From Bacteroidota bacterium (lineage in GTDB: Bacteria > Bacteroidota > Bacteroidia > Palsa-948), in assembly GCA_016213435.1 (NCBI GenBank), contig JACRAL010000001.1:1-51977 (forward strand): 51,977 nucleotides of DNA. Reading direction: 5' to 3'. Both the position numbers and the translations under genes were made by a program. Below the pieces are notes generated by a model. It saw only the letters and a program-made list of their open reading frames with translations. It was not told the DNA's origin and ran no database searches. This document shows, in pieces, positions 2 through 51,759 of this stretch (position 1 is its first letter; each line of letters opens with the position of its first letter).

Positions 2-3000
2 CCGACCATAGGCGCAGTAACGACTGCGGGTAATGGCACCTACTCAGTAACAGCCACCGTAGGCGGCTGTACGGGCCCTGCAGGCACCACGAGCGTAACA
101 ATCAACCAGACCCCTGTAGCCCCAACGGCAGGCAGCAACAGTCCGATTTGTATAGGGGTTGATCTTAGTTTAACAGCTTCCAGTACAGGAATTACATATT
201 CATGGACGGGGCCGAATGGTTTTACTTCTACGTCACAGAATCCAGTTATTAGCGCTGCGACAACCGATGCTTCAGGAACTTATTCTGTCATAGCAACAGC
301 AGGAGGATGTACGGGAACTGCGGGAACTGTGAGTGTAACAGTGAGTCCACCTCCTGCTACGCCTACAGTCGGAAGTAACAGTCCGATTTGTTCAGGTACC
401 ACGTTAAGTTTAACAGCAAGCAATGTGGCAGGAGCAACTTACAATTGGAACGGACCAAACAGTTTCACGTCTTCCTCGCAGAATCCAACTATTGCAGCTA
501 TCACGACAGCGGGCAATGGCACCTATTCCGTAACAGCTACAGTGGGAGGATGTACAGGAGCGGCAGGAACAGTTTCTGTGACTATTAATCCAACTCCATC
601 TGCACCAACTGCAGGAAGTAATTCTCCGGTTTGTTCTGGACAAACTCTTTCTTTAACTGCAAGCACATCCGGAAGTCCTTCCTATTCATGGAGCGGACCC
701 AATAGTTTCACTTCTGCATTACAGAATCCAACTATAGGTGCTGTTACAACACTTGCCTCGGGCACATATTCAGTATTTGCCAATGCTGGCGGATGTATCG
801 GTCCGGTTGCAACTATTTCTGTAACGATCAATCAAACTCCTTCTGATCCTGCGGCAAGCAGCAATACTCCTGTTTGTATAGGCGGAAATTTAAGTTTAAC
901 AGCAAGTACCATCGGAGGAGCAACGTATGCATGGATCGGACCGAATAGTTTTACTTCTGCTTCACAAAATCCAACGATAGTAGGCGTTACAACAGCCGAA
1001 TCCGGAACCTATTCTGTAACAGCTACTGTTGCAGGTTGCACGGGACCTGTAGGAACTACTTCAGTGGTTGTCAATCCTCCTCCGGGCGCTCCAACTACCG
1101 GAAGCAATAGTGCTGTATGTTCGGGCAATACCTTATCTCTCACCGCAAGTACAATTGCAAGTGCAATTTATTCTTGGAGTGGTCCGAACAGCTTCACTTC
1201 TGCTTCACAAAATCCTACAATAGCAGGCGCCACAACAGCTGCCACCGGAACTTATTCGGTTACTGCAACCGTTCCCGGATGTATAACCGGACCTGCAGGA
1301 ACTACTTCAGTTACAATTAATCAAACTCCATCTGCTCCTACTCCAGGAAGCAACACTCCTATTTGCGCAGGAAGTACTTTATCTTTAACTGCAAATACAA
1401 TCGCAGGTGCAACTTATGCATGGACAGGCCCTAACTCATTCACCTCGGCATCGCAGAATCCAACGATAGCAGGTGCTACTACTGCTGCATCGGGAAATTA
1501 TTCAGTTACCGTAACAGTCAGTGGATGTACCGGTGCTGCCGGAACAACATCTGTAACGGTTAACCCGATACCTGCTGCTCCTACAGCCGGAAGCAATAGT
1601 CCGGTTTGCGTTGGTGGAACTTTATCTCTTACGGCAAGTACTATTGCCGGAGCAACGTACGCATGGAATGGTCCGAACAGTTTTACTTCGGCTGTAAAAA
1701 ATCCAACCGTTGCCGGTGTTTCCACTGCTGATGCAGGAACGTATTCTGTTAATGTTACTGTCAGCGGATGTACCGGTCCTGTTGGAACAGATTCTGTTGT
1801 CATTAATCCTCCTCCGGGTGCTCCAACAGCAGGAAGTAATACCCCAGTTTGTTCAGGACAAACATTGAGTTTAACTGCCAGTACTATTATCGGTGCATCA
1901 ACTTATAATTGGTCAGGACCAAATAGCTTTACTTCTGTTTCTCAGAATCCTACTATTGCAGCAGTTACCACATTGGCATCTGGCACTTATTCTGTAACTG
2001 CCACTGTACCCGGCTGCAGCACAAGTCCTGCCGGAACAACTACTGTTACCATCAATCAAACTCCTTCTGCACCTACAGCGGGCAACAGTGGTCCTTTGTG
2101 TACAGGTGATATGTTAACTTTAACTGCCAATACTATTTCAGGTGCAACGTATGCATGGAGCGGACCGAATAGTTTCACTTCCGCTTCACAGAATCCTATC
2201 ATAGCGAGTGTTACTACTTCTGAAGCCGGAACATATTCTGTAGTGGCTACTGCATCAGGATGTATAGGGCCAGTTGGAACTACTTCAGTAACGATTGCAC
2301 CACCACCTTCTGCTCCAACCGCTGGAAGCAATGCGCCTGTTTGTTCGGGACAAACCTTGAGTCTGACGGCTAGCACTATTGGAGGAGCAACTTATATTTG
2401 GACTGGTCCCAATAGTTTTTCCTCTGCTTTACAGAATCCTACAATTGCAAGTGTGACTACTTTGGGATCAGGTACGTATTCTGTAACAGCTAAAATTGGT
2501 AGTTGCACAGGTCCTGCTGGAACAACATCGGTAACCATTAATCAAACACCTGTTGCTCCAACAGCTGGAAGCAACAGTCCGATTTGCGCAGGGATAACAT
2601 TGAGCTTAACTGCAAGTACAGTTGGCACTTCAACTTATTCTTGGAACGGTCCAAATAGTTTTTCATCGGCATCTCAAAATCCAACCATTGCCGGAGCAAC
2701 TACGGCTGCAAGTGGAACGTATTCTGTCGTAGCAACAGAAAGTGGTTGTACAGGCCCAGTCGGTACAACTTCTGTAACAGTAAATCCAATTCCAGCTGTA
2801 TCTTCTGCGGGAAACAACGGACCACTTTGTACCGGAACCACCCTTAGTCTTACTGCAAATACTGTTGCCGGAGCAACGTATTCCTGGAACGGACCGAATG
2901 GTTTTACTTCCGCTTCACAAAATCCAACTGTAATAAATGTTTCTACTTCTGATGCAGGAACATATTCTGTTTCTGTAACTGTGTCTGGGTGTACAGGACC

Positions 3001-6000
3001 TGAGGAGACAACGTCTGTAACCATTGCGCCACCACCTGCTGCGCCCACTGCCGGAAATAATAGTCCTATTTGTTCGGGAAATACTTTATCACTGACTGCA
3101 AGTACTGTTTCCGGTGCTACATATTTGTGGAGTGGACCGAATGGTTTTACTTCTGCTTCACAAAACCCTACAATAGCAGGTATCACAACTGCTGCATCTG
3201 GAACATATTCCGTAACAGCCACGGTAGGCGGATGCACTGGACCTGCAGGAACAACTTCTGTAACAATCAACCAAACCCCAACTGCACCCACAGCCGGAAG
3301 CAACAGTCCTGTTTGTGAAGGAAATAATTTATCACTTACAGCTAGTACCATTGCAGGCACAACTTATGCGTGGTCAGGACCTAATGGGTTCACTTCAGCT
3401 TCACAAAATCCTGTCATCACTCCTGCTGCCACATCAGATGCAGGAACTTATTCTGTGAACGTTACTTCTATTGCGAATGGATGTGTCAGTAACACTTCCA
3501 CCGTAACTATAATTGTAAACACAATTCCTGCTGCACCGGTTGCAGGAAACAACAGTACAATTTGTTCTGGCAGCACGCTTAGTTTAACTGCAAGCACCAT
3601 TGCTGGAGCAACGTATGCATGGAGTGGACCTAACAGCTTTACTTCTGCGGTAAAAAATCCAACCATAGCAAGCGTGACCACAGCTGCATCTGGTACTTAT
3701 TCTGTTTATGTTACAGTGAGCGGATGTTCTGGACCTTCAGGAACGACTTCTGTAACCATTAATCAAACACCGGCTCCTCCGACTATCGGAAGCAATTCAC
3801 CGGTTTGTTCAGGAAATGATATTAGTTTGACAGCAAACGGAACAGGTGCAACTTATAATTGGAGCGGACCAAGCAGTTTCACTTCTGCAAATCAAAATCC
3901 TCTTATCACAAGTGCGGCTACAACAAACTCAGGAACCTATTCTGTAACCACTACTTCTGCTTTAGGATGTACAAGCGCACGAAGCACAGCTACTGTTACT
4001 GTAAATCAAACGCCTGTTGCACCAACGGCAAACAGCAGTTCTCCTGTGTGTTCCGGACAAACGCTGAGTTTAACTGCAAGCAACACAGGAACAAGTTACA
4101 GTTGGAATGGACCTAACAGTTTCACATCCTCATCGCAAAATCCAACTATCGGCAGTGTTACAACTCTTGCTTCAGGAACCTATTCTGTAACAGCTACCAC
4201 AAGCGGATGTACAGGATCAGCAGGAACAGTTTCAGTTACGATAAATCAGACTCCAGCTGCTCCATCTGCCGGAAGCAACAGCCCGATTTGCGAAGGAGTA
4301 GATCTGAGTTTAACAGCAAGTACAGTCGGAAGCGGAAGTGCAACTTATGCATGGAGCGGACCAAATGGATTTACTTCTGTCTCTCAAGATCCCGTTATCT
4401 CTCCAACTACCACTGCTGATGACGGAACCTATTCAGTAATTGCAACAGAAAACGGATGTAGCGGAACGGCAGGAACTGTTTCGGTTACTATCAATGTTAC
4501 TCCAACTGCTCCTGTAGCCGGAAACAATGGTCCTGTTTGCGAAGGAAATACTATTTCTCTCACAGCAAGCACAGTAGCCGGAACAACTTATATATGGAGC
4601 GGACCGAATGGATTTACTTCCACTTCACAAAATCCAACTATTCTTGCTCCAACTACTGCTGATGCGGGTACCTATTCTGTTTCTGTTTCATCTATTGCTA
4701 ACGGATGTGTAAGCGCGGTAAGTACAAGTACAGTTATTGTAAATCCTCCACCTTCTGCACCAACCTTAGGAAGCAATTCTCCAGTTTGTTCCGGACAAAC
4801 GCTGAGTTTGACTTCAAGCACTCTTGTTGGAGCCACCTATGCATGGACGGGACCAAACAGCTTCACTTCATCTTTGCAAAATCCAGCCGTTGGTGTTGTT
4901 AGTACGCTTGCATCCGGAACTTATTCAATGACGGCAACGGTTGCAGGATGTCCTCCGCTTTCTACACAAACAGTTTCTGTTACCATTAATCAAACACCAA
5001 CTGCACCGGTTGCAGGAAGCAACACACCCGTTTGCGTTGGGAACGATATTTCACTTACAGCAAGTGCTACCGGAGCAACCTATAACTGGAGCGGACCCGG
5101 AGGATTTACTTCTGCTTCGCAGAATCCCGTTGTTACTCCTGCTTCAACAACCAATTCCGGCACTTATTCTGTAACCGCAACTTCTGTTGACGGATGTACA
5201 AGCAGTGTGAGGACAACCACTGTTACTGTCAATCCACCGTCTTTAGCTCCCGTTGCAGGAAGCAACAGTCCGTTGTGTTCAGGACAAACGCTTTCACTTA
5301 CTGCAAATACTATTTCCGGAGTAACCTATTCATGGAACGGTCCGAACGGCTTTACTTCTGCTTTGCAGAATCCAACTTTAGCTATTGCTACAACTGCTGA
5401 TGCAGGAACTTATTCTGTTACCGCTCTTGTTCCCGGCTGCGGTATAAGCCCTGCAGGAACTGTTTCTGTGACAATTAATCAGGTGCCTTCTGCTCCAACC
5501 GCAGGAAGCAATTCCACTGTATGTTCCGGACAGGATTTGAGTTTGACTGCTAATTCAGTTGGCGGAGCAACCTATTTATGGAACGGACCGAATGGATTTA
5601 CTTCTACTTCGCAAAATCCTGTGATCATAAGCGCTGCTACCCCCGATGCGGGAACGTACACAGTAAATTTAACTGTAAGCGGTTGTACAAGTCCTGATGC
5701 AACAGTGGATGCTTCCATCAATCAAACTCCTGTGACTCCATCTGCCGGAAGCAACAGCCCGATTTGCGAAGGACAGAATTTAAGTTTGACAGCAAGCGCA
5801 AGCGGAAGTCCGACTTATTCATGGAGCGGGCCGAACAGTTATTCTTCTGCTTCTCAGAATCCGGTTATCAACGGAGCAACAACCGCTGATGCGGGAACTT
5901 ATTCAGTGAACGTAACGGAAAATGGATGTACGAGTGCAGATACAATCATTAGTGTTATCATTAATCAAACACCTGTTGCTCCTGCAGCAGGAAGCAATAC

Positions 6001-18626: not shown

Positions 18627-19048
18627 TTAATCTTCTTCACTCTTCCCTCATGTCTTCCTCCTTCAAACGGAGTGGAGAGAAAAATATCCAGACATTTTTT
18701 TGCTTCTGTTTCTTCAATAAAGCGTGCAGGCAGTGTCAGGATATTTGCATCGTTGTGTTGGCGAGAGAGTTTTGCAATTTCAGAAGACCAGCAAAGTGCT
18801 GCGCGTATGCCTGCATGTTTGTTGGCAGTCATGTTTATTCCGTTTCCGCTTCCGCACATGAGCAAACCAAAGTCGGATTCTTTTTTTTCTACTGCACTGG
18901 CAACAGGATGTGCGAAGTCGGGATAGTCAACGCTTTGTTCGGAATGACAACCAAAATCTTTTACTTCAATTCCTTTCTCCAGTAAATATTTTTTCAGTTT
19001 CTCTTTGAGAGAAAATCCTGCGTGGTCAGCGCCAAGGGCGAGTTTCAT
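18620..19048 (-). CDS. rpiB: Ribose-5-phosphate isomerase B
   Basis: The 142-residue protein matches RpiB along its length. It has GADHAGF at the N-terminus (D8, H9), DYPDFAHPVA, and the active-site segment MCGSGNGINM with C65 as the likely catalytic base. The C-terminus FEGGRHEGRVKKI is typical. It interconverts ribose 5-phosphate and ribulose 5-phosphate in the pentose phosphate pathway. The start ATG is directly preceded by four heptamers of a TTAAAC-type unit, so its leader is repeat-derived. hmgA lies 71 bases upstream on the same strand and carries the same type of leader. Confidence 0.95.
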   Translation of the reverse strand: MKLALGADHAGFSLKEKLKKYLLEKGIEVKDFGCHSEQSVDYPDFAHPVASAVEKKESDFGLLMCGSGNGINMTANKHAGIRAALCWSSEIAKLSRQHNDANILTLPARFIEETEAKKCLDIFLSTPFEGGRHEGRVKKINC

Positions 19049-19076
19049 GTTTAAGGTTTAAAGTTTCAAGTTTGTG
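19049..19076 (-). repeat. Heptamer x4 directly upstream of rpiB
   Basis: On the minus strand the four units are CACAAAC, TTGAAAC, TTTAAAC and CTTAAAC, and the last abuts the rpiB ATG. The consensus is NTTAAAC. The same unit type, in the same orientation to the gene, precedes hmgA at 20296-20323. Confidence 0.85.
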
Positions 19077-20289: not shown

Positions 20290-20295
20290 CTGGTA

Positions 20296-20323
20296 GTTTA
20301 AAGTTTAATGTTTAACGTTTAGC
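20296..20323 (-). repeat. Heptamer x4 upstream of hmgA
   Basis: On the minus strand the units are GCTAAAC, GTTAAAC, ATTAAAC and TTTAAAC, ending 6 bases before the hmgA ATG. Three of the four are exactly NTTAAAC. This matches the rpiB leader repeat at 19049-19076 in unit, copy number and orientation. Confidence 0.9.
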
Positions 20324-20346: not shown

Positions 20347-22467
20347 TTATTTTGTTTCCACCCAATCACCATTCGACTTGATCAACTCAATCAACTCATC
20401 CACTGCTGTCTCTGCAGTAATATTTTTTTTCACCACTTCTTTTCCTTTGTACAAAGTGATCTTTCCAACGCTCGTTCCCACATAGCCGTAATCTGCATCC
20501 GCCATTTCACCGGGACCATTCACAATGCATCCCATAATTCCGATCTTCACGCCTTTGAGATGCGAAGTGCGTGCACGGATTTTCGCAGTAGTTTCCTGCA
20601 AGTCAAAAAGTGTTCTGCCGCAGGATGGACAGGAAATGTATTCTGTTTTTGAAATGCGTGTGCGTGTTGCCTGAAGAATACCGAATGCTGTAGAATTGGT
20701 TGCCCCCCGCCCTAAAGGGATCTGTTGTTTACTGCCGGCAATAGTACTGTTTTCTTTTTCAGTATTTCTCCCTTTAGGGTAGGGGTAACTTATCCAAACA
20801 CCATCTCCAAATCCGTCAAGCAGCAATCCTCCAAAATCTGTGGAAGAATAGAGTTGAAATTTTTCTTCAGATATATCTTTGTAGGTTCTTTTTATGATAA
20901 CAGGAATTTTTAACCCCTTTCCCTTGTCGGGAGAGTCGGAGAGGGGTGACATTAATTCAAAAAACATTCTGCGCTGTTCCGCCATACTGTGTTCATTATT
21001 CGTTTCAAAAATCAAAACCAAAGTAGAATCCGGATTTTGGATTTTAGATTTTAGATTTTTTAGGCTGTCTTGGTCAACAGAAACAAAATTTAATTCCTTT
21101 GATCTTTCCTCCATTGAAAAATATTCTTCACCACAAAAAAGAGGATACGCGCGGGTTTTGTTTTTCAGCTTTGAAAATGTTTTTGCATTATATATCAAAC
21201 CAAGCGTTCCCGGAATTTCAAAATCAATTTCATTATTGCCCAGATAAATATAATCGCAGGCTTGATCCGATAGATTCCATTTATCAAACTTTTCAGAATA
21301 ATTGTATCCTACAGCACCAAAACTTGCAGGAGTAACTCTCCCCTCTCTTTGGGGAGATGGGATGGGGGAGAGGTCAGAAAAATCCGCCACCACCCTCGGT
21401 ACATTATATCCTCCAATATTTACGACAGGTGCAGTTTCTCTTCTTCTATATTCAAAAGGAGAATATGAAAGTTTTGATACTTGTCCATCTGCCATCTGCC
21501 ATCTGCCATCTGCCATCTTTCTTTTAGAATATCTTTCAATCAAATTTTTCGCCACCGGAATTTCAAATTCCGGCTCTTCGGTGAGAGAAACGCGGATGGT
21601 ATCACCCAAACCATCTTCCAATAATGTTCCGATGCCTACTGCAGATTTAATTCTTCCATCTTCTCCATCCCCTGCTTCGGTAACCCCAAGATGAAGGGGG
21701 TAATTTCTATCTGTTTCCAACATCTTATGTACAAGCAAGCGATACGCCTGCACCATCACCTGCGTATTGCTGGCTTTCATGGAAAGCACGATGTCAAAAT
21801 AGTTGACTTCCTCGCAGATGCGCAGGAACTCCAGTGCGCTTTCCACCATTCCGAGCGGAGTATCGCCATAACGGCTGAGAATTCTGTCTGACAATGAACC
21901 GTGATTGGTTCCGATGCGCATTGCAGTTCCGTTCTCTTTGCAGATTTTTATCAGCGGAAGAAACCGCTCGCGGATTCTTTCTAATTCCTCATCATAACTT
22001 TTATCGGTGTATTCAATATGTTCAAATTTTTTTCTATCGGCATAATTGCCGGGGTTCACCCTTACTTTTTCTACAATGCCTGCGGCAAGTTCTGCCGCAT
22101 TGGGAGTAAAATGAATATCGGCACAAATGGGAGTGTTATATCCGCGTTTGCGCAATTCATTTTTTATGTTCTCAAGATTTTTTGCTTCGTTGATGCTGGG
22201 AGCCGTGATGCGCACCAGCTCACATCCTGCTTCGATCATGCGGATGCTTTGTTCAACGGTTTTGATGGTATCCATCGTGTCAGTCGTGGTCATGGACTGA
22301 ATGCGGATGGGATTAGTACCGCCAATTCTCAACTCACCCACTTTTACTTCCCGAGTTTTTAGGCGGGAATATTCAAACAAAGAATTGCAGTATATGTTCT
22401 TTAAGATATTGGATGTTGGATGTTGGATATTGGATGGCACAGATATTTTTAAATATGAAATGAACAA
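20347..22467 (-). CDS. ispG: 4-hydroxy-3-methylbut-2-enyl diphosphate synthase, long form with repeat-derived insertions
   Basis: IspG (GcpE) makes HMBPP in the MEP isoprenoid pathway using a [4Fe-4S] cluster. The N-terminal barrel shows KTREVKVGELRIGG, PIRIQSMTTTDTMDT and CADIHFTPNAA. The C-terminal cluster domain shows SCPSCGRTLFDLQ and GCIVNGPGEMADADYG. The length (706 residues) and the domain inserted between the two halves fit the Bacteroidota/Chlamydia long type. Four stretches look foreign and are encoded by DNA repeats: residues about 316-327 (KMADGRWQMADG), 364-377, 505-518 and 560-588. A further heptamer array encodes residues about 11-21. The start is unclear: in frame there is TTG at 22467 and GTG at 22440, but no ATG before the conserved YCNSL. 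Confidence 0.92.
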   Translation of the reverse strand: MFISYLKISVPSNIQHPTSNILKNIYCNSLFEYSRLKTREVKVGELRIGGTNPIRIQSMTTTDTMDTIKTVEQSIRMIEAGCELVRITAPSINEAKNLENIKNELRKRGYNTPICADIHFTPNAAELAAGIVEKVRVNPGNYADRKKFEHIEYTDKSYDEELERIRERFLPLIKICKENGTAMRIGTNHGSLSDRILSRYGDTPLGMVESALEFLRICEEVNYFDIVLSMKASNTQVMVQAYRLLVHKMLETDRNYPLHLGVTEAGDGEDGRIKSAVGIGTLLEDGLGDTIRVSLTEEPEFEIPVAKNLIERYSKRKMADGRWQMADGQVSKLSYSPFEYRRRETAPVVNIGGYNVPRVVADFSDLSPIPSPQREGRVTPASFGAVGYNYSEKFDKWNLSDQACDYIYLGNNEIDFEIPGTLGLIYNAKTFSKLKNKTRAYPLFCGEEYFSMEERSKELNFVSVDQDSLKNLKSKIQNPDSTLVLIFETNNEHSMAEQRRMFFELMSPLSDSPDKGKGLKIPVIIKRTYKDISEEKFQLYSSTDFGGLLLDGFGDGVWISYPYPKGRNTEKENSTIAGSKQQIPLGRGATNSTAFGILQATRTRISKTEYISCPSCGRTLFDLQETTAKIRARTSHLKGVKIGIMGCIVNGPGEMADADYGYVGTSVGKITLYKGKEVVKKNITAETAVDELIELIKSNGDWVETK
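20702..20787. repeat. Inverted-arm palindromic element inside ispG
   Basis: The left arm ends CCCTAAAGGGA (to 20720) and the right arm begins TCCCTTTAGGG (from 20769). These 11-base arms are perfect complements, extended imperfectly by C-rich and G-rich flanks. On the ispG strand the element encodes about 29 residues between GDGVWIS and STAFGILQATRTR, where homologues are much shorter by family knowledge. The frame is kept. Confidence 0.75.
20912..20950. repeat. GC-rich palindromic element inside ispG (second copy)
   Basis: The segment reads ACCCCTTTCCCTTGTCGGGA followed by GAGTCGGAGAGGGGTGAC. It encodes SPLSDSPDKGKGL in frame, just before IPVIIKRTY. It has the same architecture as the element at 21335. 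Confidence 0.7.
21335..21375. repeat. GC-rich palindromic element inside ispG (third copy)
   Basis: CTCCCCTCTCTTTGGGGAG forms a hairpin-like core, followed by ATGGGATGGGGGAGAGGTC. On the gene strand it encodes LSPIPSPQREGRVTP in frame after VVADFSD. Confidence 0.75.
21485..21519. repeat. Heptamer array inside ispG
   Basis: Four perfect copies of CCATCTG are followed by CCATCTT, 35 bases in all. Read on the gene strand they encode the low-complexity peptide MADGRWQMADG. A 7-base unit shifts frame with each copy, so repeating peptide phases are expected. Confidence 0.95.
22406..22437. repeat. Heptamer x4 at the ispG start region
   Basis: The units are ATATTGG, ATGTTGG, ATGTTGG and ATATTGG, followed by a partial ATGG. 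The array lies between the candidate TTG/GTG starts and the conserved YCNSLFEYS segment. It therefore either forms part of the leader or encodes NIQHPTSNI. Confidence 0.95.
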
Positions 22468-23557: not shown

Positions 23558-26458
23558 ATGGCATCTACTTCATTCGCATCGCGACACATCGGACCCAGAG
23601 AAAAAGACGTAACAACCATGCTTCAGAAAATTGGGGCATCTACGCTTGATGAACTCATCAACCAAACTATTCCTTCTAACATACGGCTGAAAAAACCGCT
23701 TAACCTTCCGGATGGCTTGAGCGAGTTCGAATATTTAAAAGAGCTGAAGAGTACCGCTTCGCGTAACAAGATATTCAAATCATATATCGGTCTCGGATAT
23801 TATAATTGCATCCTTCCTGCGGTGGTTCAGCGCAATGTTCTTGAAAATCCGGGATGGTACACCGCCTATACGCCTTATCAGGCAGAAATTTCTCAGGGAA
23901 GATTAGAAGCGCTTCTAAATTTTCAAACCATGGTGATAGACTTAACAGGTTTGCCGATTGCAAATGCATCGCTTTTAGATGAAGCAACCGCTGCCGCTGA
24001 AGCAATGCTTCTGTTTTATAATTCACGCCCGAAAACAAAATCTTCTGCAAATACTTTTTTTGTTTCCTCAGCATGTTTTCCGCAAACGATCGATGTGGTA
24101 AAAACCAGAGCATTACTTCTTGGAATAAAAATTGTCGTTGGAGATGTAAACCCTAAATCCTTAATCCCAAATTCTGAATCTATATTCGGTGCCCTCATTC
24201 AATATCCCGATACAAATGGAAATATTTCTGATTACAAAGAATTCGTAAATAAAATGCATGCTGCAAATGCATTTGTGGCAGTAGCTGCCGATCTGATGAG
24301 TCTGACTTTGCTTGTTCCTCCGGGAGAATGGGGTGCCGATGTGGTACTCGGCAATTCCCAGCGCTTTGGCGTTCCGATGGGATATGGTGGACCGCATGCA
24401 GCATTCTTCGCTACGAAAGAAGATTTCAAGCGTTCGTTGCCCGGCAGAATCATTGGCGTGTCAGTAGATTCATCCGGAAATCCTGCATTGCGTATGGCTT
24501 TGCAAACCCGGGAGCAACACATCCGGAGGGAAAAGGCGACTTCAAATATTTGTACTGCACAGGCGCTCCTCGCCATCATGGCAAGTATGTATGGAGTGTA
24601 TCACGGACCCAAAGGAGTGAAAGCCATCGCAGAAAAGATTCATCATCTCGCTTGCCAGGTTGCAGAACAATTGGAAAAACTCGGACTGAAAAATGACAAC
24701 AAATATTTCTTTGATACAATTTCGGTTTCTATTTCCGATAAAACCCTGATTCAAAAGATAAAAACGGTTTCAGAAGGAAAGCAGATTAATTTCAGGTATG
24801 ATGCACAGCTTGTTGCTATTGCGCTGGATGAAACTACCACGGGAAAAGATGCAAAAGAAATTGTTGAAGTTTTCGCAGAGGCGCTTGGGAAAAATGTTTC
24901 TGTTCCTGCTTTAAATGGTGAGACCAGTAAAAGTGTAATTAAAAATTCTTCTTTCAACCGCCAGTCGGCATTCATGACACATCCGACCTTCAATACCTAT
25001 CATTCTGAAACTGAAATGATGCGTTACATCAAGCGCTTGGAAAATAAAGATCTGTCACTCACTCATTCCATGATCTCTCTCGGTTCTTGCACCATGAAAC
25101 TCAATTCAGCATCCGAACTGTACCCGATCACATGGGCTGAGTTTGCGAACATTCATCCCTTTGTTCCTGCAGATCAGGCAGAAGGATATAAAATAGTAAT
25201 TAGCGAACTTGAGAAATTTCTTTGTGAGATCACGGGCTTCGCGGCCATTTCATTTCAGCCGAACAGCGGTGCTTCAGGTGAGTATGCCGGCTTACTCGTT
25301 ATTCAGGCGTACCATAGAAGCAAAGGCGATGCGCATAGAAATGTGGTGCTGATCCCTTCTTCCGCTCACGGAACAAATCCTGCGAGTGCGGCAATGGCTG
25401 GAATGGATATCATCATCGTGAAATGCGATGCTAATGGAAATGTGGATGTAAATGATCTGAAAGAAAAAGCGGAAAAACATAAAGTAAATCTTTCCTGTTT
25501 GATGGTTACTTATCCATCTACGCACGGAGTTTTTGAAGAAGCAATTACTGAAATTACAAACATCGTTCATCAAAATGGCGGACAGGTTTATATGGATGGA
25601 GCGAACATGAATGCGCAAGTGGGGATCACAAGTCCTGCAACTATTGGCGCGGATGTTTGCCATTTGAATCTTCATAAAACATTTGCAATTCCTCATGGAG
25701 GCGGAGGTCCAGGTGTTGGACCGATTGGAGTGGTGGCTCATCTTGTTCCGTTTTTACCTCAAGCTCCTTCCCTAAAGGGAGCAGATCATGGTTCTCTTCC
25801 TTTAGGGGTGGGGTCTGTATCCGCTGCTCCCTTTGGCAGTGCACTCATTCTTCTTATTTCTTACGGATATATAAAGATGCTTGGCAAGCAAGGTGTAACG
25901 GATGCAACACGCTATGCGATTTTGAATGCGAATTACATGAAAGATGTGCTGAAAAAATATTACCCTATATTATATGTAGGGAAGAATGGACGAGTTGCGC
26001 ACGAGATGATCTTGGATTGCGTGGAGATCAAACGTGCTTCGGGTGTAGAGGTGGGCGACATTGCCAAGCGCCTTATGGATTACGGATTTCATGCTCCCAC
26101 CGTTTCATTCCCTGTACATGATTCGCTCATGGTGGAACCTACCGAAAGCGAATCGCTGGAAGAACTTGATAAGTTTTGCGATGCCCTCATTTCTATTCGA
26201 AAAGAGATAGAAGAGGTTATTTCTAAAAAGGAAGATGCTGCAGATAATGTTCTGAAGAATGCGCCACACACTGCCAAAGCGTTGATTGCCGATAATTGGA
26301 AACATGCATATGCCCGCGAGAAAGCCGCATACCCTTTAAAATGGGTTCGCGAAAATAAATTCTGGCCTTCAGTTGGAAAAATAGATAATGCACATGGCGA
26401 CAGAAACCTGATTTGTGCTTGTTCCCCGATTGAAGAATATGAAAAAGAAATTGCATGA
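23558..26458 (+). CDS. gcvP: Glycine dehydrogenase (decarboxylating), P-protein
   Basis: This 966-residue single-chain P-protein of the glycine cleavage system decarboxylates glycine with PLP and passes the methylamine to lipoyl H-protein. The ATG at 23558 ([15 protein letters not shown]) is preferred because FxxRHIGP is the conserved family start; the longer frame from 23498 adds a non-conserved tail. The C-terminal half holds the PLP site [16 protein letters not shown] with K707. Both the N-terminal ([14 protein letters not shown]) and C-terminal ([13 protein letters not shown]) halves are complete. Residues about 735-752 ([18 protein letters not shown]) replace the usual loop after HLVPFLP and are encoded by a dispersed palindromic repeat. 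The gcvT and gcvH genes are not in the window. Confidence 0.96.
25763..25815. repeat. Palindromic dispersed element inside gcvP
   Basis: CTCCTTCCCTAAAGGGAG is followed, 10 bases later, by CTCTTCCTTTAGGGGTGGGG. The CCCTAAAGGG/CCTTTAGGGG arrangement parallels the element at 20702-20787 in ispG. It is read through in frame in a surface-loop position of the P-protein. Confidence 0.7.
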
Positions 26459-37767: not shown

Positions 37768-39630
37768 ATGAAAGAATTACGAATAGAAAATATTTTAGTT
37801 GGTCACACGATTGGCGCAATCAAAAAATTGTACGAGCAATCTGTTTCTCCCAATCAGATCACACTTCAGAAAACAAGACCGGAGTTTGAAGGCGATATTA
37901 CCTTGCTTGTTTTTCCGCTCACGAAAGCTTCTAAAAAATCTCCGGAAGAAACTGCCAATGCGATTGGAAATTACCTGAAAGAAAATGTTTCGGAAGTAAC
38001 TGTTTACAATGTGGTAAAAGGATTTTTGAATCTTGTGATTGATGATTCTTACTGGACAAATTATTTATTAAATTCAGAATCCCGTCCCGAAAGCTTTCGG
38101 GATCAGAATTCAGAATTAAAAGAGGAAACCGTAATGGTTGAATTTTCATCTCCGAACACCAACAAACCTCTGCACCTCGGTCACATTCGCAATAATTTGC
38201 TTGGAGCCTCCATTTCTGAAATTTTAAAAGCAGCAAGAAAAAAAGTGATTCGTGTTAATCTGGTGAACGACAGGGGAATTCACATTTGCAAATCCATGCT
38301 CGCGTGGCAAAAGTGGGGAAATGGGGAAACTCCATCATCAAACGGAATGAAGGGGGATCATTTGGTGGGGAAGTACTATGTGGAATTTGACAAGCACTTC
38401 AAGTCTCAAGTCTCAAGTCTCAAGTCTCAAGGAACAGCCGATGAGGAAGCAGAAAAAAATGCGCCATTAATAAAGGAAGTCCAGGAAATGTTAAGAAAAT
38501 GGGAAGCAGGCGACAAAGAAATAATTGATCTCTGGAAAATGATGAATGGCTGGGTCTACTATGGTTTCGCAATCACATATAAAGAACTTGGGGTTGAATT
38601 TGAAAAAACATATTACGAATCGGAAACTTATTTACTTGGAAAAAAGATTGTAGATGAAGGACTGAGCAAAGGAGTTTTCTTCAAAAAGGATGACGGCTCA
38701 GTATGGATTGATTTAACCAAAGATGGATTGGATGAAAAACTTATTCTCCGTTCGGATGGAACTTCGGTTTATATCACACAGGATTTAGGAACACTCATGC
38801 AGCGTTTACAGGATTTTAAGGATGACAAAATCAATAAACTTATTTACGTTGTTGGAAATGAACAAGAGTATCATTTCAAAGTTTTATTTCTGATCACTAA
38901 AAAACTGATTCAACAAAATGTTGCCGGCTTTGGCTCTCTCTCCTTTGGAGAGAGCGGGGAGAGAGGTGGAGGGGCCTCCCTTTTCCACTTGTCCTACGGC
39001 ATGGTGGATCTTCCATCCGGTAAAATGAAATCCCGCGAAGGAACGGTGGTGGATGCTGATGAATTGATGGATGAAATGATAAACACAGCAAGAGAAACTA
39101 CTAAAGCTCTTGGAAAAACGGATGGAATGAACGAAGCGGAAGCAGAAAAACTTTATCACAACATCGGTCTTGGCGCGTTAAAATATTTTATTTTGAAAGT
39201 GGATCCTAAAAAGAGAATGCTCTTTGATCCAAAAGAATCTATTGATTTCAACGGAAATACAGGTCCTTTTATTCAATATACCTATGCACGAATACAATCT
39301 GTTTTGAGGAAAGCCGAAGAAGCCAAGTTAAAAGGTACAAGTGAAAAGTCAAAAATTGAAATACACAAAAAGGAAAAAGAAGTAATCAAATTACTTCACG
39401 ATTTTCCTTCTGTAATAAAGGAAGCTGCCGAAGCTTACAGCCCGGCATACATTGCAAATTATGTTTATGAATTAGCGAAGGAATACAACCAGTTCTACCA
39501 TGAATTTCAAATTCTGAAAGCAGAGAAAGAGGCAGAGAAAAATTTCCGAATCATGCTCTCAGCAAAAACAGCAGAGGTGCTGAAATCTTCTCTGAAGCTT
39601 CTTGGAATAACTGCTCCTGAACGGATGTAG
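37768..39630 (+). CDS. argS: Arginyl-tRNA synthetase with three repeat-derived insertions
   Basis: The 620-residue class I synthetase has SSPNTNKPLHLGHIRNN (HIGH motif as HLGH), a KMSKS-like loop in DLPSGKMKSREGTVV, and a C-terminal DALR anticodon-binding domain after FNGNTGPFIQYTYARIQ. Three segments coincide with DNA repeats and read through in frame. Residues about 101-116 (NSESRPESFRDQNSEL) come from a palindrome with direct repeats, 211-220 (KSQVSSLKSQ) from a heptamer array, and about 388-403 (GSLSFGESGERGGGAS) from a GC-rich hairpin element. All appear to fall between conserved blocks. The enzyme is normally essential, so these insertions must be tolerated. Confidence 0.95.
   Translation: MKELRIENILVGHTIGAIKKLYEQSVSPNQITLQKTRPEFEGDITLLVFPLTKASKKSPEETANAIGNYLKENVSEVTVYNVVKGFLNLVIDDSYWTNYLLNSESRPESFRDQNSELKEETVMVEFSSPNTNKPLHLGHIRNNLLGASISEILKAARKKVIRVNLVNDRGIHICKSMLAWQKWGNGETPSSNGMKGDHLVGKYYVEFDKHFKSQVSSLKSQGTADEEAEKNAPLIKEVQEMLRKWEAGDKEIIDLWKMMNGWVYYGFAITYKELGVEFEKTYYESETYLLGKKIVDEGLSKGVFFKKDDGSVWIDLTKDGLDEKLILRSDGTSVYITQDLGTLMQRLQDFKDDKINKLIYVVGNEQEYHFKVLFLITKKLIQQNVAGFGSLSFGESGERGGGASLFHLSYGMVDLPSGKMKSREGTVVDADELMDEMINTARETTKALGKTDGMNEAEAEKLYHNIGLGALKYFILKVDPKKRMLFDPKESIDFNGNTGPFIQYTYARIQSVLRKAEEAKLKGTSEKSKIEIHKKEKEVIKLLHDFPSVIKEAAEAYSPAYIANYVYELAKEYNQFYHEFQILKAEKEAEKNFRIMLSAKTAEVLKSSLKLLGITAPERM
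38071..38116. repeat. Palindromic element with 10-base direct repeats inside argS
   Basis: An 18-base perfect palindrome, TCCCGAAAGCTTTCGGGA (38085-38102), is bounded by identical direct repeats AATTCAGAAT at 38071-38080 and 38107-38116. The flanks look like a target-site duplication. The frame through it is open. Confidence 0.9.
38401..38428. repeat. Heptamer x4 inside argS
   Basis: Four perfect copies of AAGTCTC are followed by a partial AAG. They encode KSQVSSLKSQ in two shifting phases. Confidence 0.97.
38932..38975. repeat. GC-rich hairpin element inside argS
   Basis: CTCTCTCC-TTT-GGAGAGAG has perfect 8-base arms (38936-38943, 38947-38954), followed by CGGGGAGAGAGGTGGAGGGG. It encodes a glycine/serine-rich insertion before LFHLSYGMVDLPSG. 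Confidence 0.85.
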
Positions 39631-48987: not shown

Positions 48988-50226
48988 ATGTTTAAAATAT
49001 TTACTCACTACAAGAATCTTGATAAGTCGATTCTCTCCGTTATCACTGCTCATTTTTTTATTCAGTTTATTGAGTATGCTTTTCTGACGCTGCTTCTCAT
49101 TTATATGAGTAATGCTGGCTATCGTGATTATGAAGCAGCTGATTTTTTCGGATACAGGTTTTTAAGTGTGTTGCTATTTTCTTTCTACCTGGGTTTGTAT
49201 ATCAACGGAAGAAAGATAAAACCCTTTTTTTACATTTCGGCTATTTGTGCCCCGCTGCTGAGTTTGGGAATTATTTTCGCGGTTCAATATCATCTTGATC
49301 TTCTGATCTATGTTTTAATGTTCTTGTTCGGTGTTTCTATTTTGGGGCTGGATGTATCCATCATTCCTTACCTTTTAAGAAATGTACCCGAGGAGCATCA
49401 TACCGAAGCGATTTCATTGACCTATGCTACAAATAGTTTGGGCGGTATTTTAAGCGGTGGACTTATTTGGTTATTCACTTATATTAATCCGGAACTATTT
49501 GATGAAAAGATGATATTAAAAATAGTTTCAGTGATTGGTTTAGGAGGAATTTATTTTGTGTGGGCAAGTAAAAAGCCTGAGTTTTATGTACCTATTCTCA
49601 AGAAAAGCAGGTACGATTTCAGAGATATTAAATGGGGCTTGGTAGCCAAAGCAATGGTACCCACATTACTGATTGCTACCGGTGCCGGAATGGCAATTCC
49701 GTTTATGGGTTTGTTCTTTACTACAATACATCATATGACATCTTCTGATTTTGCCGTTCTGACTTCTTTCACAACCCTTTTTGTATTTATATTGACCATC
49801 TATGTGCCTTACATCAATAAAAAACTCGGTTATAAGATCACTATTACCGGATCTCAATTGATGGCGGTGCTGTGCCTGGTTGGATTGTCGTGTTCGGAAT
49901 TTTACAGCACCTATGCGTATGCCGCACTGGTGGCAGTTTGCTGTTATGTGCTTCGGCAGCCGCTCATGAATATTGCAGCGCCAATAACATCTGACCTTAC
50001 GATGAAATTTGTAGGATTCAGGCATCGTGAAATTGTAAGTTCGCTCACCACAGCCATTTGGTCGGGCAGCTGGTTTTTCAGCTCCATCATATTTAAAGTA
50101 TTGCGTACCCATCAGGTACAATATGCGTATATATTTTTTATTACTGCTTTGCTTTATGTGTTTGGTATTCTCTGGTATTATTACCTGATCATATTGTTCG
50201 AGAAGGGAAAGCATCAAGTTTATTAG
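48988..50226 (+). CDS. MFS-type transporter-like membrane protein
   Basis: The 412-residue protein has about 12 hydrophobic helices and charged loops, in the layout of the major facilitator superfamily. Features include an inner loop NGRKIKPFF after helix 2, ATNSLGGILSGGLIWL in helix 5, and an internal basic segment (LKKSRYDFRDIKWGL) between the two halves, plus IKKLGYKITITGSQLMAVL in the C-terminal half. The substrate is unknown. It is divergent from mqnC, sharing a region with a 19-base palindrome. Its stop is immediately followed by the repeat that borders the four-helix-bundle gene. Confidence 0.78.
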   Translation: MFKIFTHYKNLDKSILSVITAHFFIQFIEYAFLTLLLIYMSNAGYRDYEAADFFGYRFLSVLLFSFYLGLYINGRKIKPFFYISAICAPLLSLGIIFAVQYHLDLLIYVLMFLFGVSILGLDVSIIPYLLRNVPEEHHTEAISLTYATNSLGGILSGGLIWLFTYINPELFDEKMILKIVSVIGLGGIYFVWASKKPEFYVPILKKSRYDFRDIKWGLVAKAMVPTLLIATGAGMAIPFMGLFFTTIHHMTSSDFAVLTSFTTLFVFILTIYVPYINKKLGYKITITGSQLMAVLCLVGLSCSEFYSTYAYAALVAVCCYVLRQPLMNIAAPITSDLTMKFVGFRHREIVSSLTTAIWSGSWFFSSIIFKVLRTHQVQYAYIFFITALLYVFGILWYYYLIILFEKGKHQVY

Positions 50227-50227
50227 G

Positions 50228-50259
50228 TATTGAGGGAATGAAGGAAAGAGGGAATGAAT
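50228..50259 (+). repeat. Eight-base-period repeat, left border of the four-helix-bundle gene
   Basis: The four units are TATTGAGG, GAATGAAG, GAAAGAGG and GAATGAAT, starting 2 bases after the upstream stop. An in-frame ATG (50254) lies inside the last unit. A related array in opposite orientation lies at 50668-50699 (22 of 30 positions match). Confidence 0.8.
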
Positions 50260-50280
50260 AGAAACAAAACTATTTATACC

Positions 50281-50667
50281 ATGAACAATAGTGAGTTTGC
50301 CGAATACTTTAAAAAAAGGACTAAACAGATAGCATTAAGAGCAATAAAACTTTGCAAGAAACTTTTTAAGACAGAAGAGGGAAGAATTATTGGCAGACAA
50401 TTTTTGAAATCGTCAACTTCTGTTGCGGCAAATTACCGGGCAGTATGTAGAGCGAGATCGGGAGCAGAGTTTTTCTCTAAGCTTAGTATTGTTGTAGAGG
50501 AAGCCGATGAAAGCGCTTTCTGGTTGGAAATTATTCTCGAATCAGGCATGGCAAAAGAAATAGGTGAAGAACAAGAAACAGAGAACATGCTTAAAGAAGC
50601 AAATGAAATTTTAGCAGTTGCCTCTTCTGCAAGAAAAACAGTAAGAACAAACAAAGGAAATGAGTAA
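50281..50667 (+). CDS. Free-standing four-helix-bundle protein, S23/Avd-like
   Basis: The protein of 128 residues (137 from the ATG at 50254, which is inside a repeat) matches the 23S rRNA intervening-sequence/four-helix-bundle family. Signatures are FKKRTKQIALRAIKL, IIGRQFLKSSTSVAANYRAVCRARS, FFSKLSIVVEEADESAFWLEII and a helical tail. The family includes Avd, the accessory protein of diversity-generating retroelements, and proteins encoded within 23S rRNA insertions. It is a basic, probably nucleic-acid-binding protein. Here there is no reverse transcriptase or rRNA nearby. The gene fills the space between an inverted pair of 8-base-period repeats, suggesting a small mobile unit. Confidence 0.88.
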   Translation: MNNSEFAEYFKKRTKQIALRAIKLCKKLFKTEEGRIIGRQFLKSSTSVAANYRAVCRARSGAEFFSKLSIVVEEADESAFWLEIILESGMAKEIGEEQETENMLKEANEILAVASSARKTVRTNKGNE

Positions 50668-50699
50668 CTCAGTCCCTCAACAATTCAATCCCTCAAAAC
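50668..50699 (-). repeat. Eight-base-period repeat, right border of the four-helix-bundle gene
   Basis: On the minus strand the units are GTTTTGAG, GGATTGAA, TTGTTGAG and GGACTGAG. It begins directly after the gene stop and ends 4 bases before the pdxA ATG, so it also forms the pdxA leader. It is inverted relative to 50228-50259. Confidence 0.8.
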
Positions 50700-50703
50700 T
50701 ATT

Positions 50704-51759
50704 ATGTCGGATCACAAAATAAGAGTAGGCATCACACAAGGCGATCCCAACGGAATTGGTCTGGAAGTGATCATTAAAACATTTATGGATTCGCAGATGC
50801 TGGAAATCTGCACACCGGTTCTTTTTGGTTCGCAAAAAACATTTTCCTTTCACCGCAAAGCGATGAATGTGGAAATGCGTTTTAATCCCATCCGTAATTC
50901 TGAAGTAGCCGGACAAAAGCAATTCAATATTTTCAGTGTGTATGAAGAAGAAATTCCGGTCGAATTCGGAACTTCAACGGAAACAGCAGGAAGGTATGCG
51001 CTCAAATCTATTGAAGCTGCATGCGATGCGCTGGAACAGAAAAAAATAGATGTGCTTGTTACGGCTCCCATCAACAAGCACAATATTCAGTCACCACAAT
51101 TTCAGTTCAAAGGGCACACCGATTATTTAGAAACACGTTTCAAAAATAACGCACTTATGCTGATGTGCGCGGATAACTTCAGGGTGGGAGTGGTAACAGG
51201 GCATGTTCCCCTTGCGAACGTTTCTGTCATCATTAATCAGGAAAGGATTGTTCAGAAGATAAAAATCATGAACCAATCGCTTATAGATGATTTTGGGATA
51301 CGCAAACCAAAGATCGCGGTGCTTGGATTGAATCCACACGCGGGAGATAACGGCACTATCGGTGGGGAAGAAAAAAGCGTAATTGCTCCGGCTATTGTGC
51401 AGGCAAAAGCCGAAGGAATCTTTGTACAAGGACCTTATTCCGCGGACGGATTTTTTGGAAGCATGAAACACACTAAGTATGATGCTGTGCTTGCCATGTA
51501 TCACGACCAGGGATTAGTTCCTTTTAAGGCTTTGGCGTTTGAAACAGGAGTGAATTACACGGCAGGGCTTTCGGTCATCCGCACTTCTCCCGATCACGGA
51601 GTGGGATACGATATTGCCGGAAAAAATATAGCAAGCGAAGCATCCTTCCGCAGCGCAGTGTATTTTGCCTGCGATATTTATAAAACCAGAAACCACCAGA
51701 AGGAAATTACCGCTAATCCGCTCAAATCCTTATCTAAGAACGAAAGGGAGTTTGGGTGA
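50704..51759 (+). CDS. pdxA: 4-hydroxythreonine-4-phosphate dehydrogenase
   Basis: The 351-residue PdxA protein acts in vitamin B6 synthesis, oxidising 4-phosphohydroxy-threonine before condensation by PdxJ. Signatures are VGITQGDPNGIGLEVI at the start, TAPINKHNI, FKGHTDYLE with a metal-binding histidine, NPHAGDNGTIG, YHDQGLVPFKALAF with a second metal histidine, and RTSPDHGVGYDIAGK. The start ATG follows the repeat bordering the four-helix-bundle gene by 4 bases. Any native promoter may therefore lie upstream of that inserted unit. Confidence 0.95.
   Translation: MSDHKIRVGITQGDPNGIGLEVIIKTFMDSQMLEICTPVLFGSQKTFSFHRKAMNVEMRFNPIRNSEVAGQKQFNIFSVYEEEIPVEFGTSTETAGRYALKSIEAACDALEQKKIDVLVTAPINKHNIQSPQFQFKGHTDYLETRFKNNALMLMCADNFRVGVVTGHVPLANVSVIINQERIVQKIKIMNQSLIDDFGIRKPKIAVLGLNPHAGDNGTIGGEEKSVIAPAIVQAKAEGIFVQGPYSADGFFGSMKHTKYDAVLAMYHDQGLVPFKALAFETGVNYTAGLSVIRTSPDHGVGYDIAGKNIASEASFRSAVYFACDIYKTRNHQKEITANPLKSLSKNEREFG

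Follow-up and report, generated by a model that had tools for sequence, protein, structure and literature searches.

The window analysed here, a stretch of 51,977 nucleotides from a Bacteroidota bacterium (GTDB lineage Palsa-948), carries an open reading frame for an S23/Avd-type four-helix-bundle protein (TIGR02436, PF05635; 50254..50667, forward strand) between the gene for an MFS-family protein (48988..50226) and pdxA (50704..51759), both on the same strand. The ORF is flanked by an upstream arm at 50228..50259, an 8-bp-period array on the forward strand (TATTGAGGGAATGAAGGAAAGAGGGAATGAAT) that contains no C on the coding strand, and by a downstream arm at 50668..50699 on the reverse strand, in which the upstream array returns inverted (reverse complement GTTTTGAGGGATTGAATTGTTGAGGGACTGAG). 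Almost no bases intervene between the MFS stop (50226), the first array, the ORF, the inverted array, which begins directly after the S23 stop codon, and the pdxA ATG (50704), 4 nt further on. A preliminary description of this DNA had placed the gene between two opposite 32-base arrays, one abutting the upstream stop and the other 4 bases before the pdxA ATG, with no reverse transcriptase, rRNA or transposase present, and our coordinates and gene assignments agree on each of these points: the S23 ORF alone lies between the arms, it has no match among transposase models, no Y1 (RAYT) transposase is found within the cassette, and the cassette occupies the MFS–pdxA interval rather than the inside of an rRNA gene. 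Its count of 22 matching arm positions also holds, but over 31 rather than 30 aligned bases, the best ungapped match of the two arms being 22/31 (P(≥22) ~1e-4 against random window pairs of equal spacing). As the listed ATG at 50254 falls within the upstream array, the ATG at 50281 (MNNSEF...) is the more probable start of the S23 protein.

The ORF matches the profiles PF05635 (4e-10) and TIGR02436 (6e-20) with scores above the curated cut-offs (40.2 versus 33.8 and 71.6 bits versus 24, respectively). Its AlphaFold2 model is a four-helix bundle (pLDDT 92.9) for which the top Foldseek match is 2RLD (E 3.6e-5, TM 0.69-0.74 by query), a PDB entry comprising five chains. The model also matches 2GSC and, more weakly, the Avd protein of DGRs, with a probability of 0.91-0.99 for the DGR ribonucleoprotein and Avd entries 8UB7, 8UB8 and 4DWL; one paralog (L008) has weak matches to Avd HMMs. 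2GSC has been described as a pentamer (PMC4990558). Residues Q49, S56, N60 and E86 show almost no variation, or none at all, among 123 proteins of the family. No catalytic nuclease motif was recognised in the S23 protein. The dN/dS ratio of family ORFs is 0.03-0.16 in most pairs, with synonymous sites saturated in several of them and one very close pair uninformative, values indicative of purifying selection on the cassette ORFs. Genes are commonly annotated as ‘four helix bundle protein’ (TIGR02436), a label for which we know of no function outside DGRs and rRNA insertions. Assignment of the gene to a defence system or to a phage was considered and rejected: PADLOC gave no match, a single weak tblastn match was obtained among phage records, and the only PHROG match, for a paralog, was to the Avd of DGRs. 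One further protein match, inside a ksgA-like gene (L010), was discarded as spurious.

The window genome (G000) encodes 14 S23-family genes and its congeners between 2 and 23, and nearly every paralog in the window genome is enclosed by inverted arrays, each with a unit of its own, such as ATTTAGG, GTTTCTCC, CTTGGAA or CAATTGATAATGG. Inspection of the flanks of other family members, proposed in the preliminary description, showed this arrangement to be general. Across a wide set of GTDB species, 97 of 114 loci exceeded the 99th percentile of random segments from the same loci (control n=4177) and, after removal of duplicates, so did 110 of 131 free-standing family loci (84%), compared with 16 of 412 neighbouring genes (3.9%) treated as a control. 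A chance origin of the arms is ruled out by the random window-pair, random-segment and neighbouring-gene controls. The arms consist of some four to five copies of a 7-8-bp unit that varies among cassettes and is common to both arms of one cassette. A period of 7 or 8 fits best in 91 of 107 cassettes, whereas the control distribution is flat, and the median arm measures 34 nt. The upstream arm is poor in C on the coding strand (5.6% C versus 23.6% G), and inside operons the cassettes are oriented in the sense direction in 105 cases and antisense in only 3. Among the hosts are members of the Bacteroidota, Ignavibacteria and Acidobacteria and one Falkowbacteria genome. Genes of an unrelated type, GxxExxY (PDDEXK_3), are also found flanked by inverted arrays (PF13366 loci L209-L238 of the genus; L206, G004:C14:4332-4676), and in most of 26 loci these arms contain repeats spaced ~8-9 bp apart with variable spacers; one such gene takes the place that an S23 cassette occupies at the corresponding junction of the window genome. 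As these arms are similar and the protein they enclose is unrelated, such arms may not be confined to the S23 fold.

Comparison with relatives shows that what is gained or lost is the gene together with both arms, at operon junctions. The preliminary description had likened the unit to a minimal mobile element and had suggested looking for an empty site lacking 50228-50699. Such a site exists in the closest congener (G001), where the MFS gene and pdxA are contiguous across a 25-bp spacer (L012) holding neither gene nor arms, and six further cassettes behave in the same way, so that all seven window-genome cassettes whose flanks were found in G001 face an empty site there, with contiguous flanks, spacers of 0-48 bp and both gene and arms missing. 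These empty sites and the family-wide inverted arrays support the earlier suggestion. Other congeners present at the same junctions either nothing, another S23 gene, a gene-less inverted pair or a GxxExxY gene. For example, a different S23 gene precedes pdxA in the opposite orientation in G002, another lies at the pntA junction in G003, gene-less inverted pairs occupy such junctions in G004 and G005, one of them in G004 contains a GxxExxY gene together with the arms belonging to it, and a related S23 gene precedes pdxA in G006. Two cassettes (L003 and L154) are common to the window genome and the more distant G003 and missing in G001, a pattern suggesting either that G001 lost them cleanly or that they were gained more than once. 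Terminal inverted repeats (110/131 loci) and empty sites in relatives (7/7 cassettes against G001), both expected of a transposon, are present; no target-site duplication is visible around the spacers, where divergence of ~15-20% could mask one. The label ‘transposon’ is nevertheless premature, because the ends, the target duplication and the enzyme are only putative.

In two Pontibacter species (L120 and L129) one and the same cassette, adjoining rho, is flanked by the same pair of convergent genes but points in opposite directions. The flanks align in reverse at 81-88%, the gene and arms align forward at 78%, and the breakpoints fall within the arms. On these alignments the pair is best read as an inversion in place, with two independent insertions as the alternative reading, and makes the rho-adjacent cassette a candidate invertible element. 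Movement would nonetheless be infrequent, since many copies keep their position across species: one positionally conserved cluster comprises 14 loci, mostly from Mucilaginibacter, and another 8 loci from Pedobacter, and these orthologs indicate that family members can long persist where they are. At the pntA junction an S23 cassette is present both in the window genome (L002) and in several distant Bacteroidota MAGs (L094, L095, L106, L116); this junction is possibly a preferred site or the site of a very old insertion.

Arm and protein are linked in sequence. Among non-orthologous loci of the genus, the higher the protein identity of two cassettes, the more similar their arms (0 of 2000 permutations). 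Over all loci, 88% of nearest protein neighbours have the same period, compared with a mean of 61% after shuffling, a figure confounded by ancestry; within the genus the nearest-protein, same-period test was not significant. Taken at the sequence level, the comparison of non-orthologous loci shows the arm unit changing along with the protein lineage.

Short-period arrays also occur singly. The window contains six significant period-7 arrays as compared with 0.1 in shuffles, and none of the other periods from 5 to 13 is enriched. Two arrays are dispersed at 19041..19073 (unit GTTTAA) and 20295..20321 (AGTTTAA); three are associated with ispG, at 21032..21059 within the coding sequence (GATTTTA), at 21485..21518 in a loop that differs among relatives (CCATCTG) and at 22405..22436 at the 5′ end (GATGTTG); a perfect array of TCAAGTC lies inside an argS loop (38399..38431), where relatives have other arrays or palindromic repeats; and a weaker one of TAAATCC lies inside gcvP (24147..24180), in a loop ~9 nt longer than in relatives. 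The preliminary description had assigned the cassette ends to the same class of repeat as those dispersed in the window, which is correct for the class but not for the unit and period, the arms having a period of 8 and the dispersed arrays of 7. In a sample of 1.1 Mb drawn from 39 Bacteroidia genomes, the dominant period is 7, with 57 arrays against at most 16 for any other period. Array density correlates with S23 copy number in these 39 genomes (rho 0.45, p=0.004), although not significantly outside the genus of the window genome (rho 0.21, p=0.24), and genomes with no more than one S23 gene yielded 2 arrays in ~336 kb. The units of single arrays resemble cassette arms more than column-permuted controls do (p=3e-4), and gene-less inverted pairs, single arrays and GxxExxY cargo share genomes, and sometimes sites, with the cassettes. 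Many of the scattered short repeats in such genomes may be gene-less relatives of the cassette. The closest congener has two S23 genes and no Y1 transposase match, yet its period-7 arrays still number about one in every 8 kb, as though arrays persisted there longer than the cassettes with genes. The variable loops of argS, gcvP and ispG (L303-L309, L311-L317) contain either in-frame heptad arrays or small palindromic repeats of the CCCTCCCGAAGGGAGGG type, which replace one another among congeners. The appearance of the in-frame single arrays is one of overwriting, not of simple insertion. A tandem repeat of another kind, with a 243-bp unit in 2.3 copies (74% match), lies at 2852-3412 of the window and possibly represents repeated domains of a surface protein.

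Of the closest known systems, the intervening sequence (IVS) of 23S rRNA genes with its S23 protein, as in Coxiella and Leptospira, likewise consists of an S23 ORF between complementary termini and no other gene, appears selfish and is inserted in the sense direction in a transcribed unit. The window cassette possesses such complementary termini (22/31, inverted) but lies outside rRNA and has short-period arrays where the IVS has one long stem; the cassettes moreover occur in several copies per genome at many sites, with no pairing covariation found. We classify the cassette as an S23 element of the IVS type that sits outside rRNA and has arms of short period. The Avd protein of DGRs belongs to the same fold family, but the window gene has no adjoining reverse transcriptase, template repeat or variable repeat. 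RAYTs are Y1 tyrosine nucleases and REPs are palindromes of fixed sequence. The REP/REPIN–RAYT system (PMC3116915) resembles the cassettes in comprising dispersed single repeats, gene-less inverted pairs and pairs around a small gene, and differs in that the cassette encodes a helix-bundle protein and has a unit sequence that varies among copies. The gene-less pairs (L183, L193, L015, L017) recall MITEs, being short inverted-repeat segments present where relatives have a gene-bearing cassette; unlike MITEs they have short-period array termini, and no parent transposase with matching termini was identified. The heptanucleotide repeats of cyanobacteria, Xanthomonas and Nostoc (STRR; GGGAATC; PMC4692102) are, like those described here, of period 7, mostly intergenic and variable in copy number, and have been reported as unassociated with mobile elements (PMC4692102). 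Xanthomonas, a host of heptad repeats, also encodes the S23 structure Xcc0516 (2GSC). On Planktothrix agardhii plasmids (L239, L242) an S23 gene inside a DISARM operon (drmD – S23 – MmeI/PglX) is placed between STRR-like heptads (CCCAATC/CGATTTA) in arrays whose copy number varies among strains; all three Planktothrix plasmids carry the S23 gene, and none offered an empty site for the exact ends. We propose a link between heptad repeats and S23 genes. No paper joining free-standing S23 genes to tandem arrays was found in the open-access literature, as covered mainly by titles and abstracts.

Mobility of the cassette is supported by these comparisons, and it is probable, if well short of certain, that 50228-50699 belongs to a widespread family of mobile cassettes, each with a single gene, in which the S23 protein brings the ends together. 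This reading draws on the arms, the empty sites, the tracking of arm and protein, the Pontibacter inversion and the sense bias, as well as on the dN/dS ratios, the fold homology to 2RLD, 2GSC and Avd, the correlation of array density with copy number and the arm-like character of single arrays, while against it stand the in-frame arrays, whose overwritten look it leaves unexplained, the lack of a recognised nuclease motif, the similar arms of the GxxExxY genes, the positional conservation of many copies, the non-significant density correlation outside the genus and period test within it, and the failure to see a target-site duplication. The cassette gene would lack a promoter of its own and be expressed from the host operon, which would account for the sense orientation. 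By analogy with the solved relatives 2RLD and 2GSC the protein may form a pentameric ring, each subunit of which would bind one repeat unit, so that a full ring would read some five units, the length of an arm; rings at both ends could then bring the ends of the cassette together for cutting and joining, whether these steps fall to the S23 complex or to enzymes of the host. On this view the gene-less pairs and the single arrays would act as non-autonomous substrates, standing to the S23 gene as REPINs and REP singlets do to RAYT genes.

The main rival would make the cassette an RNA element like the 23S rRNA IVS, whose arms pair in the polycistronic transcript, where RNase III cuts the stem and releases the cassette, rendering the operon insertion harmless and mobility secondary or ancient. 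It draws strength from the rRNA IVS itself, in which an S23 ORF of the same plan sits in the loop of a stem processed by RNase III (PMC4990558), from the sense orientation inside operons and from the strand asymmetry of the arms, and such a stem may also be an added property of the cassette. Yet the arms are imperfect and AT-rich, their duplex energies are no better than those of random segments of the same loci, and single arrays lie in coding genes without a partner. Own arms paired as RNA no better than cross-species arms among orthologs (p=0.44; p=0.036 by sequence score only), so that the covariation predicted under selection for an RNA stem was not found, and we regard this explanation as unlikely. 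It is somewhat harder still to see the gene as a passenger that, like GxxExxY, merely landed between slippage-prone host repeats or between substrates of a trans-acting enzyme such as a Y1/RAYT-type transposase or a reverse transcriptase. Gene-less arms and arms around the unrelated GxxExxY gene do occur, and most of these genomes contain Y1 transposases, as does the window genome outside the cassette, with the congener that has none possessing just two cassettes. However, arm units track the protein lineage, the empty sites in that congener lack the arms as well as the gene, and slippage by itself makes no inverted matching pairs. A Y1 enzyme acting in trans is not required, given that G015 has 12 family genes and no Y1_Tnp match. 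An origin from a DGR or other reverse transcriptase was rejected, RVT_1 being absent from most congeners: five of seven (G001, G002, G004, G005, G006) gave no match, among them the copy-richest (G005, 23 family genes), and single matches were found in the window genome, on another contig (C58), and in G003. Very improbable is an ordinary, vertically inherited operon gene of regulatory function, with autoregulatory binding sites as its flanking repeats and simple losses as its absences. The conserved clusters, the purifying selection and the related gene before pdxA in G006 would all fit such a gene, but not a copy number of anywhere between 2 and 23 inside a single genus, different host genes flanking each copy, the changing content of one junction among congeners or a copy in opposite orientations at the same site.

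Beyond the single-gene mobile cassette itself, we offer more tentatively, as a possibility we would not yet favour, that the family forms a new class of minimal transposable element, in which a ring-forming S23/Avd-type protein, in place of a DDE, serine, tyrosine or HUH recombinase, recognises about five tandem 7-8-bp terminal units, the unit drifts while protein and arms co-evolve, and the dispersed heptads of Bacteroidota, cyanobacteria and others are non-autonomous relics. A new mechanism of transposition is put forward here as a hypothesis, for which the Pontibacter pair and the empty sites of the congeners are ready test cases. It would be mechanistically unusual for a mobile element to lack both a known nuclease and a fixed terminal sequence. 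An excess of heptameric repeats in bacterial genomes has long been noted, and this excess, together with the origin of the cyanobacterial STRR repeats, would gain a testable source. Should S23 genes indeed be the autonomous members of a mobile family, a great many genes now listed as hypothetical would acquire a function.
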